Assembly: GCA_958296245.1 (NCBI GenBank)
Contig: OY282458.1
Location: 1,448,777-1,512,776 of the forward strand
DNA from: an uncultured Dehalococcoidia bacterium
GTDB lineage: Bacteria; Chloroflexota; Dehalococcoidia; Lucifugimonadales; G958296245
DNA: 64,000 nt
Reading direction: 5' to 3'
A program made the translations under genes and the position numbers. Below the pieces are notes generated by a model. That model did no database searches. It was not told the origin of the DNA and worked only from the letters and a program-made list of their open reading frames with translations. Shown here piece by piece: positions 40,913-60,293 of this stretch. Position 1 is the stretch's first letter. Each line of letters starts with the position of its first letter.

Positions 40913-41842
40913 TCAACGCTCCAGCGTCACCGGCGTGCACCAATGCACGTAGCGGGGGGCGTCCCCCCGAACTACCTTGGAGTAGATGTCGCTGATCGAC
41001 TGGGTTACGGGGCCTATCTTTCCGCTGCCGATGGTACGGTGGTCCAGCTTTCCGACAGGGGTGACGTGGGCCGCCGTGCCGGTCAGGAACACCTCGTCGG
41101 CGAGGTAGAGCTCGCTCCGGTAGAGGTGCCTCTCAACTATATCCATCCCCAGTTCGTTCTTGGCGAGCTGGAACACGGAGTCCCTGGTTATGCCGGTCAG
41201 GTTGTTGTCCCCAAGCAGGGGGGTATGGATGGCGCCGTCGGAAACCATGAACAGGCTCTCGCCCGCGCCTTCCGAGACGGTGCCGTCCTGATTGAGGAGT
41301 AATGCCTCGTCGAAGCCCGCCAGGGTCGCCTCGGTCTTGGCAAGAATCATGTTCACGTAGGCGCCGGACACCTTCACCCGTGGAGGTATGTTGGTATCCT
41401 CCATGCGGCGCCAAGAGGAGGTGCAGCAGTGTATGGCGCCCTCGGTCTCTATGTACGAGCCGAACGGCACGACCACCAAGGCGAAGTCGCTGCTAAGGCG
41501 CTGGAGCATTAGATTCGCGACGAGCTCCTCGCTCTTGTAGGCTATCGGCCTGATGTACACGTCTTCGGCGTAGCCGCACGTCCGGAGCAGCCTGGAGGTG
41601 ATGCCGCAGAGTTCGTCGACGCCGTAGGGGATGTCCAGCATCATGATGCGGCAGCCTTGTAGTAGACGCTTGTAATGTTCCCGGAGTCGGAACACGAATA
41701 GGGTCTGCTGGTCTTCGTTCCAGTTGCCCCGGACGCCCTCGAATACCGACGTGCCATAGTGCAGGGCGTGGGTCATTATGCTTACCTTCGCGTCGGCGAT
41801 AGGGACCACCTCCCCGCGAAAGAAAGCCATCGCCTGGGGCAT
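40913..41842 (-). CDS. ilvE: Branched-chain amino acid aminotransferase
   Basis: 309 aa from ATG 41842, preceded by AGGAGG at 6-bp spacing; a longer frame to 41917 has no site and is out of line with family length. PLP fold-type IV enzyme that makes or degrades Val, Leu and Ile. Seen: the start region AFFRGEVVPIADAKVSIMTH, FEGVRG, RIMMLDIPYG, IRPIAYKSEE, the PLP-binding EGAGESLFM and the late TGTAAHVTPV. Complete. Confidence 0.9.
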   Translation of the reverse strand: MPQAMAFFRGEVVPIADAKVSIMTHALHYGTSVFEGVRGNWNEDQQTLFVFRLREHYKRLLQGCRIMMLDIPYGVDELCGITSRLLRTCGYAEDVYIRPIAYKSEELVANLMLQRLSSDFALVVVPFGSYIETEGAIHCCTSSWRRMEDTNIPPRVKVSGAYVNMILAKTEATLAGFDEALLLNQDGTVSEGAGESLFMVSDGAIHTPLLGDNNLTGITRDSVFQLAKNELGMDIVERHLYRSELYLADEVFLTGTAAHVTPVGKLDHRTIGSGKIGPVTQSISDIYSKVVRGDAPRYVHWCTPVTLER

Positions 41843-53654: not shown

Positions 53655-53711
53655 TAACAGCGGGTCGGTCTAGGTCTTGCGGAGTTGCGGTTTCGAAGGG
53701 AGGAGATATTC

Positions 53712-55724
53712 ATGACTAGTATGAGAGCTTTGTTCGCAGTGGCGGCGGCGCTGGTTCTGCTCGCCTCTTGGGCATGTACCCGAGAGGTGGTGAAGGAGGT
53801 GCCGGTCGAGGTGGTGGTGGAGAAGGAGGTGGTGAAGGAGGTAGAGGTACCCGGCGAGACGGTCGTCGTGGAGAAGGAAGTGGTGAAGGAGGTGCCGGTC
53901 GAGGTGGTGGTCACCAAGGAGGTCGTAAGGGAGGTAGAGGTGCCCGGCGAGACGGTCGTCGTGGAGAAGGAGGTGGTGAAGGAGGTGCCGGTCGAGGTGG
54001 TGGTCACCAAAGAGGTGATCAAGGAGGTGGAAGTGGAGAAGGTAGTGGAGAAGGAGGTCGTCAAAGAGGTACCCAAAGAGGTGGTGGTGGAGAGGGAGGT
54101 GGTGAAGATAGTCGAGGTCGAGCGACCGGGTGGCAAAGAAAAGGTCTTGAACATCCGAATGGCCAACATGCCGCCCAGCTTACCGCCTCATACGACGGGC
54201 AGCGGGGCCGTGGTGCAGGTTATGGGGTACATGTTCCCACGCCTGGCTCAGCCGGACCCGACGCTCGGAAGGTGGGTCCCGGACCTGGCCGAGAGGTGGG
54301 ACGTCACCCCCGATGGCAGCCAGTGGACCTTCTACCTTCGCAAGAACGCGGTGTGGAACGACGGGAACCCGATTATCGCCGAGGACGTCAAGGCAACCTT
54401 CGAGTCGTACCTCCTCCCAGAGGCAGGGTGGTGGATGCACAACATGTTCGAGAACCTAAAAGGGGCCTCTGACGTCGTGGAAGGCACGGCCACCGAGATA
54501 TCCGGTGTGACCATCGTAGATGACAACACAATCCAGTTAACGATGGACCCCCCCACGCTGACGTTCCTGGACACTTTGAGCAACCTGTGTGGCCTGGCGC
54601 CGCCGCCGGTCCTCCCCGCGCACATACTGAAGGATATACCGGACGACCAGCTTCTCGAGCACGATTTCTGGTCGAGCGGCTTCATGGGGGGTGGGCCCTT
54701 CAAGTTCGTCGAGTATGTCCCGGACCAGTACATGGAGATGGAGGCCAACGACGAGTTCTACTTCGGGAGGCCGAAGATTGACCGAATCATCCTGGCAATC
54801 ATCCCCTCGGCAGACGCGACCCAGATCGCCATGCAGCGGGGAGAGATCGACGTAACCGTGCGCGGCGGGGTCACAAACGACGCCGCGCAAACGATGCTCC
54901 TGGACCCCCGGTTCGACGTCTACGCTACGCAGGGTACCGTCGCGGTGGGATTCGGCTTCAACCAGCGCCACGACCATTTGAAGGACGTGCGGCTGCGACA
55001 GGCCTGGGTACACGCCCTCGACCGGAAGCTGCTGCTGGACAAGTTCCAGAATGGACTGGGAAGTGTAATAAACAGCCCCCTGGTACACAGCTGGTACCAG
55101 AAGCCGGAATGGGACGATGCATTCCCGTACGACCCTGAGAGGTCGAAAGCGCTGCTCGCGGAGATGAACTGGGACCCCAACAAGGTAATCATGGTGCACG
55201 CGGGGGCTCCGAGGGACGAAGAGGGGCGAGCGCGGCTTGCGGTCATGCAGCAGATGCTCGGGGACGTGGGCATCAAGATAGAGTACGACACGGAGCCGGG
55301 CGCAGCCGGACAGAACAAGTGGTACGACACCCACTCCGCTGAGGTCCTATACTCCGGCTGGGGCACGTTTGGTCACCCGACCGGGTGGCTCTCACATATC
55401 AACCGGCCGCTCGAGGACGGTGAGTTCTACTACTACAACGCTGATCTGCACGAGTTGACCACCAAGGGAGCCGCAGCAACCGATCGGGAAGAGGCCGCGA
55501 TGATCTGGCAGCAGATAGTCGAGGAGTACTTCCACAAGGACCTTCCCTGGGTGGGGCTGTACAACGGCGCCGGGATAAAGGTGAAGAACAAGCGCTTCTA
55601 CATGCCGCATTTCGGAGAGATCCCGAAGCCGCTAAAGCTTTCCCAAATCAAGGTTTACCCGGTCCACGTGGGACGTGACGACAACTGGCAGTACCACGTC
55701 GAGCAGTGGGACATAAGGGACTAG
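53712..55724 (+). CDS. Family 5 solute-binding lipoprotein of a peptide/nickel-type ABC importer
   Basis: 670 aa from ATG 53712 after GGGAGGAG. Lipoprotein signal ending LLASWAC, then an unusual linker of about 110 residues made of KEVVKEVPVEVVV and EVEVPGETVVVEKE repeats, predicted to stand the binding domain off the membrane. The binding domain follows: LAERWDVTPDGSQWTFYLRK, DVKATFES, LRQAWVHALDRKLLLDKF. It precedes the two permease genes (with a sialidase-fold gene between). A hairpin terminator follows, so it may be made in excess. Ligand unknown. Confidence 0.88.
   Translation: MTSMRALFAVAAALVLLASWACTREVVKEVPVEVVVEKEVVKEVEVPGETVVVEKEVVKEVPVEVVVTKEVVREVEVPGETVVVEKEVVKEVPVEVVVTKEVIKEVEVEKVVEKEVVKEVPKEVVVEREVVKIVEVERPGGKEKVLNIRMANMPPSLPPHTTGSGAVVQVMGYMFPRLAQPDPTLGRWVPDLAERWDVTPDGSQWTFYLRKNAVWNDGNPIIAEDVKATFESYLLPEAGWWMHNMFENLKGASDVVEGTATEISGVTIVDDNTIQLTMDPPTLTFLDTLSNLCGLAPPPVLPAHILKDIPDDQLLEHDFWSSGFMGGGPFKFVEYVPDQYMEMEANDEFYFGRPKIDRIILAIIPSADATQIAMQRGEIDVTVRGGVTNDAAQTMLLDPRFDVYATQGTVAVGFGFNQRHDHLKDVRLRQAWVHALDRKLLLDKFQNGLGSVINSPLVHSWYQKPEWDDAFPYDPERSKALLAEMNWDPNKVIMVHAGAPRDEEGRARLAVMQQMLGDVGIKIEYDTEPGAAGQNKWYDTHSAEVLYSGWGTFGHPTGWLSHINRPLEDGEFYYYNADLHELTTKGAAATDREEAAMIWQQIVEEYFHKDLPWVGLYNGAGIKVKNKRFYMPHFGEIPKPLKLSQIKVYPVHVGRDDNWQYHVEQWDIRD
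53785..54125 (+). repeat. GTGGAGAAGGAGGTGGTGAAGG-type codon repeat (binding-protein linker)
   Basis: Tandem imperfect units such as gaggtggtgaaggaggtgcc encode the Lys-Glu-Val-rich linker. The reverse strand is open here and gives a Ser-Thr-rich frame, which is an artefact of composition. Confidence 0.8.
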
Positions 55725-55762
55725 CAGGACTTAGGTACGCGTTCAGGAAGACTGGGAATATG

Positions 55763-55802
55763 CGCGGTCGGCTTGGGCAGGTTTCTGGCCGGGCCGACCG
55801 CG
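55763..55802 (+). terminator. Hairpin terminator after the binding-protein gene
   Basis: CGCGGTCGGC and GCCGACCGCG form a perfect 10-bp stem with a 20-base loop, 39 bp after the stop. It is followed by acctttcataac, a weak U-rich stretch. Partial termination here would raise binding protein over permeases. Confidence 0.6.
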
Positions 55803-55958
55803 ACCTTTCATAACAGGTTTCCTCTGTGTGTGCAGGAAGGCGCAACAGTTGGACGTCCCCTCAAGAGCATCTGTCCGCTCGTGGGATCCCATTGATCGAT
55901 GGCTAATCTGTTACGCGTACGGGAAGCTTCCTGGCCGATGGACTAAGTTACGAGGGAT

Positions 55959-57044
55959 GTGACACGAGAGATTGAGACAGTCATGGAGCCACGCATTGAC
56001 ATCGTGTGCCCGTACAGTGTCGAGTGGCCGCGCAACTCGGAGGGATCGATAGCCGTGCTGCACGATGGGCGCTGGCTATTGGCTTGGAGCGGCTTCTACG
56101 GCGGGTTCTGGGACGACTCTCCCGCGCACATCATGGGCAAATGGTCGCACGACAAGGGCGAAACGTGGAGCGATCCCTTCATAATGAAGGAGAACGATGC
56201 CGAGCGCTGCGTGGCATCGGCAAGCCTTGCGGTGATTGACGACGGCAGTATCGGCCTCGTCTACTGCCATAAGAAGAATGAGACCGATGAGTGCAGGCCC
56301 TTCTTCCAGAAGTCCTCGGACGAGGGCCGGAACTTCGGTACCGATAAGACTATGGTTCCCGCGACCATGACACCTTGGTATGGCGGCTCCCTGAACGGCA
56401 GCCTGTTCCAGATGTCCACCGGTCGCCTGGTGGCGCCGATCTATCCGCCTCAAACCGTGATGGCCGCCTATTCGGACGACGCAGGCGAGTCCTGGGAGCT
56501 GAGTTCGAAGACGACCACGGTGGAGGGGCCTGGCCCGTACTATGCCTATCCTTCGGGTGGGGCTGCCGAGCCCGTTGCGTTCGAACGGAGGGACGGGACG
56601 CTGCTCTTTATCTTCCGCACCGCTCTCGGAACGCTTTACGCAGCCGAGTCCGCGGATGGTGGGGAGACCCTCTCGGATGCCTATGACACGGGGCTAATGT
56701 CACCACGGGCCCCATGCGCCGTGGGACGGATACCCGCTACAGGGGATATCCTGATAGTGTGGAACAGGGCGCGTCCGTTGCCGAACGACCATGGTCCGAG
56801 GGCTCCTCTTACAGCCGCGATCTCACGGGACGAAGGTATGACGTGGGAAAACGTCAAGGACCTCGAGCCTGACAGGGACACAATCAACACGTACGCGTCG
56901 CTTGCGTTCGACGGCGACTTGGTGCTGGTCACCTACTCCCTGGGGCAAGTAGATGTCGACGACAAATGGGGGACCAAGACCTCCTTCAGGAGCCTGCCGG
57001 CGCTCAAGCTCGCGCGGGTCCCGTACCAGTGGTTCTATGAATGA
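55959..57044 (+). CDS. Sialidase-fold (BNR/Asp-box) protein
   Basis: 361 aa, no signal peptide. Four Asp-box-like motifs occur in order: SHDKGETWSDP, SDDAGESWEL, SADGGETLSD and SRDEGMTWEN, the mark of a six-bladed beta-propeller. An Arg near the start (WPRNSEGSIAVL) and one in FIFRTALGT could belong to an arginine triad, but I cannot confirm sialidase activity. The start is GTG 55959; ATG 55983 is an alternative. It sits between the binding-protein and permease genes, so it may process the imported sugar or glycopeptide. Confidence 0.72.
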   Translation: MTREIETVMEPRIDIVCPYSVEWPRNSEGSIAVLHDGRWLLAWSGFYGGFWDDSPAHIMGKWSHDKGETWSDPFIMKENDAERCVASASLAVIDDGSIGLVYCHKKNETDECRPFFQKSSDEGRNFGTDKTMVPATMTPWYGGSLNGSLFQMSTGRLVAPIYPPQTVMAAYSDDAGESWELSSKTTTVEGPGPYYAYPSGGAAEPVAFERRDGTLLFIFRTALGTLYAAESADGGETLSDAYDTGLMSPRAPCAVGRIPATGDILIVWNRARPLPNDHGPRAPLTAAISRDEGMTWENVKDLEPDRDTINTYASLAFDGDLVLVTYSLGQVDVDDKWGTKTSFRSLPALKLARVPYQWFYE

Positions 57045-57153
57045 CAACCGCCGGATACCGGTTGGGGGATCGATTGTATGGATGGTTACCCGAGGCGGGC
57101 CTGTGCCGGCTGGGCGCATAGGCGGCGTAGCCTCGTAGCGGAGCGGCTCTTTC

Positions 57154-58107
57154 ATGCAGAGGTACATTGCGCGGCGCCTGCTTATCGCCATTCCTATGCT
57201 GATAGGCATCACCATGATGACCTATGCGTTCATAAACCTGGCGCCTGGCGATCCCGTATCCGCCATGGCGGACCCTCAGCTGACCTTGGGCAGGACCAAT
57301 CCCAAGCAGCTAGAGCGACTGGGGCTGGACAAACCTGTAGCTGTCCGGTACCTGATTTGGCTCAGGGAGCTCGCAAAGGGCAACTTCGGATATTCCTATC
57401 AGTCCGGCAAGCCGGTGCTAGAGATAATCAGGGCCCGGATAGTGCCGACGCTGGAGCTGACATCCGTTACCTTGGTCGTGTCCGTAGTACTGGGCACGGT
57501 GTTCGGGGTCCTTGCCGCCCTGCGACAGTACAGCATATACGACTACCTGCTCAGCGTGGGCTCCCTGATCGGTCTTTCGATCCCCACATTCTTCTTTGCG
57601 TTGCTGGCGCTCTACCTCTTCGCCGCCGTATGGCCGATCTTTCCCTCGTTCGGCTTCACCACCTACGGGAGCGATTACTCCGTCCTCGACAACCTTCACC
57701 ACCTCATCCTACCCGCGACCGTGCTCTCGGTCGAGTCGATGGCGGGCAACACGCGGTACGCGCGCACGGCGATGCTGGAAGTGATGAGGTCGGACTATGT
57801 GACTACCGCTAGGGCCAAGGGGCTGAGCGAGTTTTCTGTGATCGGCAGACATGCCTTCCAGAACGCGCTGCTGCCGCTGATCACCATCACGACCCTGCGA
57901 CTTCCTTCCCTATTTGGGGGCGCCTTCATCATAGAGTACATGTTCGCATGGCCGGGAATGGGTCAGCTATCCATCCAGGCAGCAGTCATGCGCGACTATA
58001 CGGTACTGATGGGGTTGGCGGTCATCATCGCCGCTCTCGTGCTTGGTGCGAACCTGCTGGCCGACGTGTTGTACGCCTTCGCTGACCCGCGCATTCGACA
58101 GACTTGA
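57154..58107 (+). CDS. DppB/OppB-type ABC permease
   Basis: 317 aa, six membrane segments. Seen: N-terminal YIARRLLIAIPMLIGITMMT, LGLDKPVAVRYLIWL, and the ATPase-contact EAA loop EVMRSDYVTTARAKGLSE. ATG 57154. It forms the transmembrane pair with the next gene. The upstream 109 bp shows no gene. Confidence 0.9.
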   Translation: MQRYIARRLLIAIPMLIGITMMTYAFINLAPGDPVSAMADPQLTLGRTNPKQLERLGLDKPVAVRYLIWLRELAKGNFGYSYQSGKPVLEIIRARIVPTLELTSVTLVVSVVLGTVFGVLAALRQYSIYDYLLSVGSLIGLSIPTFFFALLALYLFAAVWPIFPSFGFTTYGSDYSVLDNLHHLILPATVLSVESMAGNTRYARTAMLEVMRSDYVTTARAKGLSEFSVIGRHAFQNALLPLITITTLRLPSLFGGAFIIEYMFAWPGMGQLSIQAAVMRDYTVLMGLAVIIAALVLGANLLADVLYAFADPRIRQT

Positions 58108-58130
58108 GCGGCCGAAGGACATAACGAAGA

Positions 58131-59033
58131 ATGTCGACAGCTGATGACGCAAGAGATGTAGACCTTGAGCTAACGGCTCTGCCCCGCAGGTCCAATCAAG
58201 GTGTCTGGCCGCGGTTCCGACGCCACCGCCTCGCGCTCATCGGACTCGTCATACTGGTTGTATTCAGCGTCATGGCCATCCTCGCCCCGTGGGTCTCAAT
58301 AAACGACCCCCTAAGGGCAGATGTTTTCAACATCAAGACGCCGCCGAGCCGCGACCACATTCTCGGCACCGACTCCGCCGGACGCGATATCTTTGCCAGG
58401 ATAGTCCACGCCGGACGTGTCTCATTGAGCGTGGGCATTGTCGCCGCTCTGATCTCCTCTGCGATCGGCACCATCCTCGGGCTAATCTCCGGGTACGTCG
58501 GCGGGTGGGTGGACAATCTGCTCCAGCGCTTCACCGAGCTGGTGATGACCATTCCGACCTTCTTTGCCGTGATCATACTGGTCTCGATAGTCGGGGCAAG
58601 CATCTGGAACCTGATGGTGGTCATCGGCTTCCTGGGGTGGACCGGGCAGGCCCGGCTCGTACGCGGCCAGGTGCTCTCCCTGCGCGAGACGGACTACGTC
58701 ACCGCGGCGCGGGCGATCGGCGGCGGCCACGGCCGGTTGATGTTTGCACACATCTTCCCCGGCATCGTGCCCTATATCGTGGTGGCCGCCACGCTGACGC
58801 TGGCGGGCGCCATACTAACCGAAGCGGGCCTCAGCTTCCTAGGGCTGGGTGTCAGGATCCCAACCCCTACCTGGGGAAACATGATGAACTCCGCCCAGTC
58901 CCTCCACATACTCCAACACCAGCCCTGGCTCTGGCTCCCTCCCGGCATCGCGATCTCCGCAACCGTCATCGCCGTAAACTTCGTGGGCGACGGCCTGCGG
59001 GACGCACTCGACCCACGCACGATAATAGAATAG
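58131..59033 (+). CDS. DppC/OppC-type ABC permease
   Basis: 300 aa. Seen: RFRRHRLALIGLVILVVFSV, HILGTDSAGRDIFARIVHAG (the DppC signature), and the EAA loop RETDYVTAARAIGGGHGRLM, then a C-terminal NFVGDGLRDALDPR. It starts 24 bp after dppB. No DppD/DppF ATPase genes follow in the window, so the importer must use ATPases encoded elsewhere. Confidence 0.9.
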   Translation: MSTADDARDVDLELTALPRRSNQGVWPRFRRHRLALIGLVILVVFSVMAILAPWVSINDPLRADVFNIKTPPSRDHILGTDSAGRDIFARIVHAGRVSLSVGIVAALISSAIGTILGLISGYVGGWVDNLLQRFTELVMTIPTFFAVIILVSIVGASIWNLMVVIGFLGWTGQARLVRGQVLSLRETDYVTAARAIGGGHGRLMFAHIFPGIVPYIVVAATLTLAGAILTEAGLSFLGLGVRIPTPTWGNMMNSAQSLHILQHQPWLWLPPGIAISATVIAVNFVGDGLRDALDPRTIIE

Positions 59034-59137: not shown

Positions 59138-59773
59138 CTAGTGAACCACCTCTATGGTGTGCGCCATCCCGCGGTCTTCCCAAGTGCGGCTGTACATGTA
59201 CAGTGAGTCGAGATCAGCGGGGACAGTGAATTCGACCACCTCTTGGTCACCAGCCCAGAGCTTGAGGTCAGCAAACCTCTCACCCTTGACTCTGCTTCTT
59301 CTTTCCCTGCTTACAGCAAGGCCAAAGTCGATTCACCAGCACTCGTCAGGGTCGGTGAACGTGTTTGTAACGATGAACCTCACCTTCTTGCCCGCCGGCA
59401 CGGTCAAGGGGCCGTCGAAGTCGAAGATGTATTTGTAGTTCTCGTCCCACGTTATGTCGATGTAGATCGTCTTGGCTACGGGGCCATCGTCGGCGTCCGC
59501 CGTCACCGAGCCGTCGTCCGGGCTGGGGATTGGCCACTCGACCGATGCCGGCAGAACGGTCATGGCTGGCTGAATGCGGACCGGGCCGCTGTCTTCGTAA
59601 GGTGCCGCAACGTCCTCGGCGGTGACTTGTTCAGAGGGCAAAGTCGAGATAGCTTCGGGCTCCGCCCGCTCACTAATCGGCTCTACGGAAAGGGCCGAGC
59701 CCTTGCCGCAGCCTATGCTCACGGCCAGCAGCACTGAGAGGACGCCCCACAGGGCCGGTTTCAGCATACGCAA
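59138..59773 (-). pseudogene. Cupredoxin-like lipoprotein frame with an in-frame TGA
   Basis: The annotatable first part (59773 to 59333) encodes 146 aa: lipoprotein signal ending LLAVSIGCGKG, a linker, then a domain with IYIDITWDENYKYIF and VPAGKKVRFIVTN. It ends in TGA (59335-59333). The same frame continues without another stop for 64 codons to TAG at 59138 and reads IDFGLAVSRERR, WAGDQEVVEFTVPAD and a C-terminal GMAHTIEVVH typical of cupredoxin-like folds. So the gene once, or still, spans both parts. A hairpin CCTTGCT-GTA-AGCAGGG (59321-59305) lies 11 bp after the TGA. Either a nonsense mutation (for example CGA to TGA) or UGA recoding. Confidence 0.6.
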
Positions 59774-59879: not shown

Positions 59880-60293
59880 GTGGTAGCGGGAGAAAGCCAG
59901 GTCTTCTTTATCGAGCCCGAAGACGGGGCCCAGTTCAAGGAGTTCCCGTTCAACGTCAAGATTGGCTCGGAAGGGCTCGATGAGAGCTCGGGACACTACG
60001 TGGTCGTGTGGGGCGTAGACGACCCTTACCCCGCTGAGGGCCAGCCTGTGCCCACTGACGAGCAACATATCCACTTGGAGCCGGGTCAGTCGGAGGTCCA
60101 GCTGGACCCAGCCGGAGGACAACAACCCCTTCACATAATTTTCGTGGACGAGAACAAGATGGTGACGGACCGGTCGCTGTCGGACTCGATCGCCGTTACC
60201 ATCTGGAAGGCGGTAATTGACGACATCCCGGCTGGCACAGTCCGTTCCGAGGACTACTCCGAAAAGGCGTCCACCCCTGAGCCTGACAACTGA
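59880..60293 (+). CDS. DUF4399-like domain protein, possibly 5'-truncated
   Basis: 137 aa from GTG 59880. VFFIEPEDGAQFKEFPFNVK, GHYVVVWGVDD, then EQHIHLEPGQSEVQLDPAGG with LHIIFVDENKMV match the DUF4399 pattern, which normally sits in exported proteins. No signal peptide is present, although the frame is open for more than 100 bp upstream without a start codon (…IQTETITITVVAG). The 5' end may have been lost in rearrangement. A duplicated cctatacag occurs at 59822 and 59832. Confidence 0.5.
   Translation: MVAGESQVFFIEPEDGAQFKEFPFNVKIGSEGLDESSGHYVVVWGVDDPYPAEGQPVPTDEQHIHLEPGQSEVQLDPAGGQQPLHIIFVDENKMVTDRSLSDSIAVTIWKAVIDDIPAGTVRSEDYSEKASTPEPDN

Follow-up and report, generated by a model that had tools for sequence, protein, structure and literature searches.

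On the minus strand of the window, as the whole stretch of 64,000 nucleotides analysed here is called, a gene for a cupredoxin-fold lipoprotein contains an in-frame TGA, which raises the question of whether this codon encodes selenocysteine (Sec), ends the protein, or is a defect in an otherwise ordinary gene. The initial annotation described the protein as cupredoxin-like and named selenocysteine recoding as a possibility, while holding that a mutation from CGA to TGA, or a base error, was the simpler explanation. The results described below make it highly likely that the gene encodes a selenoprotein, i.e., an exported cupredoxin-fold lipoprotein with Sec at the TGA, in which a former copper scaffold carries a CxU motif. 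The features of the gene are collected in Table 1.

The product has a length of 209 residues including Sec, and, as was annotated, the reading frame continues for 64 codons past the TGA to a TAG at 59140-59138. The gene span had been given as 59138-59773, of which the TAG end holds, whereas 59773 is an in-frame TTG and the ATG at 59767 is the likely start judging by the sequence. The three orthologues described below have a comparable hydrophobic stretch with a Cys at its end. With a lipobox-like Cys, judged by eye, in all four proteins, the window protein would be exported as a lipoprotein.

Table 1. Features of the selenoprotein gene, in window coordinates
Feature	Position	Strand	Basis
Selenoprotein gene from ATG to TAG, including a single in-frame TGA	59138..59767	-	start codon deduced from the sequence
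Signal peptide through putative lipid-anchored Cys (LLAVSIGC)	59708..59767	-	sequence reading
Cupredoxin-fold domain, 115 residues	59141..59485	-	AlphaFold2 model; Z about 11 to copper proteins
Invariant Cys codon, 2 before the Sec codon (CWU motif)	59339..59341	-	4/4 orthologues
TGA predicted to encode selenocysteine (59335-59333)	59333..59335	-	TGA in 4/4 orthologues; Sec machinery in genome
SECIS hairpin, 7-bp stem CCTTGCT (59321-59315)/AGCAGGG (59311-59305), loop GTA (59314-59312), 18 nt past the TGA	59305..59321	-	offset identical in 4/4; beats synonymous randomisation
Ser codon where related cupredoxins have the copper-ligand Cys	59189..59191	-	alignment A6
Trp codon where the second copper-ligand His would be	59180..59182	-	alignment A6
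Retained axial Met	59165..59167	-	invariant in alignment A6

Conservation of the TGA codon and the downstream hairpin

Orthologues were searched for in overlapping sets of 59 relatives, 393 genomes of the class, 250 of the order and 400 of the phylum. Three clear orthologues were found besides the window gene, and these four sequences constitute the orthologue evidence. The three are G046 (also L029; a Chloroflexi MAG, CAJWER010000014.1), G010 (also L030; OY282442.1, an uncultured Dehalococcoidia) and G594, with a domain identity of 54-61%. G010 and G046 represent two genera of one GTDB family, while the window's genome and G594 each come from a further family, so that the four genes span three GTDB families of one order. 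Each gene contains exactly one in-frame TGA, located at the identical codon in an [E/D]CWU motif (DECW-U-IDF in the window protein, DECW-U-HNF in two orthologues and SDCW-U-HTF in the third). The alignment of homologues at this codon, as proposed in the initial annotation, thus returned TGA in all four genes and Arg in none. Among the 250 genomes of the order, no orthologue has Cys, Arg or Trp at this position. Furthermore, no Cys form was found when 84,980 species genomes were scanned with the patterns DECWC[HI][ND] and LYM[FY]SRT[WY]. The scan matched just two TGA-bearing loci, reachable by the second pattern, as the first can match a Cys form only. Pairs of Sec and Cys orthologues are the usual support for selenoproteins, but are no strict requirement. 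In viral contigs, no relatives were found.

The 64 codons following the TGA align gapless in the four genes and end in TAG in each of them, and an invariant core (CW-U-x-x-F-x-LAVS-x-ER-x-SR) spans the TGA. The downstream codons vary mostly at third positions; for every pair of genes, third-position differences exceed second-position differences 1.5- to 5-fold, which fits the expectation under protein-level selection. Codons +1 to +18 show more synonymous identity than codons +19 to +64 (0.62 vs 0.38, P = 0.04), a modest point, since the 20 codons preceding the TGA reach nearly the same value (0.58). With the TGA present at the same codon in three related genomes, the codon looks like a real feature of an undescribed selenoprotein family rather than a mutation.

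The initial annotation had also described a CCTTGCT-GTA-AGCAGGG hairpin with a loop G 18 bases after the TGA, which is exactly what is found. A hairpin of 17 nt is located at the identical offset from the TGA in all four genes: CCTTGCT GTA AGCAGGG in the window, CCTTGCT GTA AGCAAGG in two orthologues and CCTCGC GGTCA GCGGGG in G010. In the three genes with a 3-base loop, 18 nt separate the TGA from the loop, which has G as its first base; the GGTCA loop of G010 starts one base earlier, also with a G. Bacterial SECIS elements have a G in the first two bases of a loop located 16-37 nt after the UGA, and all four hairpins place their loop G in this way.

Compared to synonymous-codon randomisation, the hairpin energy at the site gave P = 0.032, 0.004, 0.005 and 0.006 for the four genes, while counts of stem pairs at any place within the permitted range were less telling (P = 0.08, 0.008, 0.36 and 0.005). 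In the hairpin alignment, 96% of the cells are paired, compared to 29-54% in slid-strand controls. By these sequence-based measures, the hairpin is more than a product of chance. The variation among the four sequences consists of one compensatory pair and one U-A/U-G pair; covariation lends weak support, because with four sequences it does not rise above within-column shuffles (119/500). The Rfam search returned nothing but a sub-threshold match located elsewhere.

Selenocysteine machinery and the cupredoxin fold

The genome to which the window belongs is a single contig of 2,685,284 bases, 98.4% complete, and selA, selB, selC and selD, for which the initial annotation had advised a search, are all present in it. 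The selA (526 bits), selB (310 bits, or 343 including a C-terminal match) and selD (373 bits) genes score over their curated cut-offs, and the tRNA-Sec with anticodon UCA reaches 65.9 bits with the Rfam model and is called tRNA-SeC by ARAGORN. In addition, selD itself has an in-frame TGA near its N-terminus (SCAG-U-ASK; G000:C1:4795-5715, L011), at the position known to hold Sec in many SelD proteins. A strong hairpin follows this TGA, and therefore SelD is probably a selenoprotein as well. Given the four sel genes and the TGA in selD, the genome very probably decodes Sec. Across the order, selA scores over the cut-off in 199 of 247 genomes, so the use of Sec is likely widespread there.

General reassignment of TGA was considered and ruled out, as TGA is a common stop in the window and terminates 16 of the 36 long ORFs. 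A codon-usage scan of the window for read-through TGAs picked up none at a strict threshold, the selenoprotein gene included; at a looser threshold, it picked up only this gene and position 40915. The latter was rejected as a read-through TGA, as it represents two adjacent genes sharing one frame.

The 115-residue domain was modelled with AlphaFold2 from three sequences with Cys in place of Sec (model m9ee54cc4b4e9). The model has nine strands, a pLDDT of 79 and a pTM of 0.74, with low confidence in stretches 62-67 and 103-105. Its top structural matches are cupredoxin domains of nitrite reductases, auracyanins, nitrosocyanin, AcoP and the copper domain of nitrous oxide reductase (Z 9.9-11.1, rmsd 2.1-2.6 A, 91-105 residues), and Foldseek concurs. 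At the level of the predicted structure, the comparison confirms that the domain has a cupredoxin fold (Greek-key beta barrel). The earlier description as cupredoxin-like therefore applies to the fold, whereas the copper ligands are largely lost.

The auracyanins of Chloroflexus and Roseiflexus (6kol, 2aan, 1qhq) and nitrosocyanin (1ibz) share the fold over almost the entire domain (Z 10.8-11.0, rmsd 2.1-2.5 A). These proteins bind copper, whereas the window family has Ser and an aromatic residue at the ligand Cys and His positions of related cupredoxins, with Cys-Trp-Sec added. Within the order itself, cupredoxin proteins (L037; L019/L020) have about 30% domain identity to the window family and share its conserved elements in like order as well as the Met. 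However, they have an intact set of presumed copper ligands (H..C..H..M) and contain neither the TGA nor the CWU loop nor the SRxKG insertion. In alignment A6, the cupredoxin HTF...(F)C[RK]PHE..GM becomes [H/I]xF...SR[TS][W/Y/F]E..M in the window family. The ligand Cys is replaced by Ser and the second His by Trp, Tyr or Phe in all four members, while the Met is kept. A five-residue insertion and the Cys-Trp-Sec are placed directly ahead of the first-His position, which in the window's own protein is Ile. The residues of the window family thus differ from the His, Cys, His (Met) ligand set of type-1 (blue) copper sites.

Alternative readings and proposed function

Point mutations, such as CGA to TGA, and base-call errors are common in single genomes and could in principle have broken an ordinary cupredoxin gene. 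Here this is hardly credible, as four genomes from three families, each assembled independently, share the TGA at this codon, and a conserved protein and a conserved hairpin follow it. The initial annotation's preference for such an error is refuted by the orthologues, none of which has Cys, Arg or Trp at the codon. A genuine stop at the TGA, or programmed readthrough with Trp, yielding a short form or a mixture, is improbable, though less so than an error. Termination normally competes with Sec insertion, and a Trp precedes the TGA in all four proteins. However, the genome has the full Sec system including tRNA-Sec(UCA), the hairpin matches SECIS geometry, and the protein is conserved up to its C-terminus, including strands that the fold requires. 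The recoding noted in the initial annotation is thus supported, and from the conserved TGA, the hairpin and the machinery we infer that SelB and Sec-tRNA(UCA) would insert Sec at the TGA, guided by the SECIS hairpin 18 nt downstream.

A selenoprotein could still have retained a role in metal binding. The Cys, the Sec, the retained Met and the His beside Sec (present in three of four members) could form a rebuilt site for copper or another soft metal, with a natural selenolate ligand. In favour of such a site, copper proteins have this fold, the Met does not vary, and CWU directly precedes the place of the first His ligand of copper. Nevertheless, we regard such a site as unlikely, above all one with a conserved His, because the ligand Cys and the second His are lost in all four members and the window protein has Ile in place of the first His. 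To our knowledge, selenolate-metal centres in cupredoxins come from engineered proteins only. Under the favoured reading, that of a selenoprotein on a former copper scaffold, the family, set against copper cupredoxins of its order, has lost the Cys and the C-terminal His ligands and gained a short Cys-Trp-Sec loop before the first-His position, and most likely the role of a blue-copper electron carrier was lost with them. For Cys and Sec, the most probable arrangement is a selenenylsulfide (CxU) that opens and closes reversibly and serves redox reactions of the thiol or peroxide type on the outer side of the cytoplasmic membrane. Read from the CxU motif, this function has a somewhat better than even chance.

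Relation to known selenoproteins and gene neighbourhood

The window protein is matched by no NCBIfam model, and for all four members Pfam gives sub-threshold matches only (DUF7407, 0.015; Cupredoxin_1, 0.097). A separate Pfam search and a PDB sequence search likewise returned nothing useful. No cupredoxin is among the 119 prokaryotic selenoprotein families and subfamilies inventoried in 2026 (PMC13188914). The CxU motif is found there in rhodanese-like form 3, UshA-like, ferredoxin-thioredoxin reductase and thioredoxin-like Sec.1 proteins (Table 1 of PMC13188914). Like the window protein, these are encoded with an in-frame TGA and have Cys at the second residue ahead of Sec, but they contain other named domains, none of them a cupredoxin. 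Among open-access full texts that mention both selenoprotein and cupredoxin, titles and abstracts indicate other subjects only, and the titles and abstracts of the open-access literature on selenocysteine and azurin contain no natural case. Given the missing NCBIfam match, the sub-threshold Pfam scores and an inventory and literature without a cupredoxin, the window family seems to be a new family of selenoproteins with a known fold.

The bacterial selenoproteome thereby gains an apparent new family of cupredoxin fold, in which a blue-copper scaffold has apparently been turned to selenium/sulfur chemistry. Standard gene calling is expected to cut its product off at DECW. As no Cys form was found, methods that search for Sec/Cys pairs may miss the family, and reliance on such pairs is acknowledged as a limit by the authors of deep-Sep (PMC12013277). 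The finding suggests that more Sec-only families are possibly hidden in this order, in which selA is frequent.

The neighbourhood of the selenoprotein gene is conserved only in part across genomes. No redox partner gene is conserved beside it, and none could be named in the neighbourhood. In G594, a gene for a DUF4352/5067-like lipoprotein lies divergently upstream, and a similar protein is found in G046. Lipoprotein genes similar to one another lie in this divergent position in two genomes, at L029:42-749 (G046) and L036:189-917, the latter with a weak Pfam match to DUF4352/DUF5067. In the window, their place is occupied by a DUF4399 gene (59880-60293). Permeases of the oppBC type are found near the selenoprotein gene in the window and G046 only. 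In the window, they are part of a set of oligopeptide-type ABC transporter genes on the plus strand (53685-59033). In this set, a BNR-repeat (sialidase-like) gene separates the gene of the SBP_bac_5 binding protein from those of the two BPD_transp_1 permeases. The permease pair near the selenoprotein gene in G046 (L029) is similar. Just downstream of the selenoprotein gene of G046, three consecutive, mutually similar lipoprotein-like genes without a Pfam match lie on the minus strand (L029:1900-4500).
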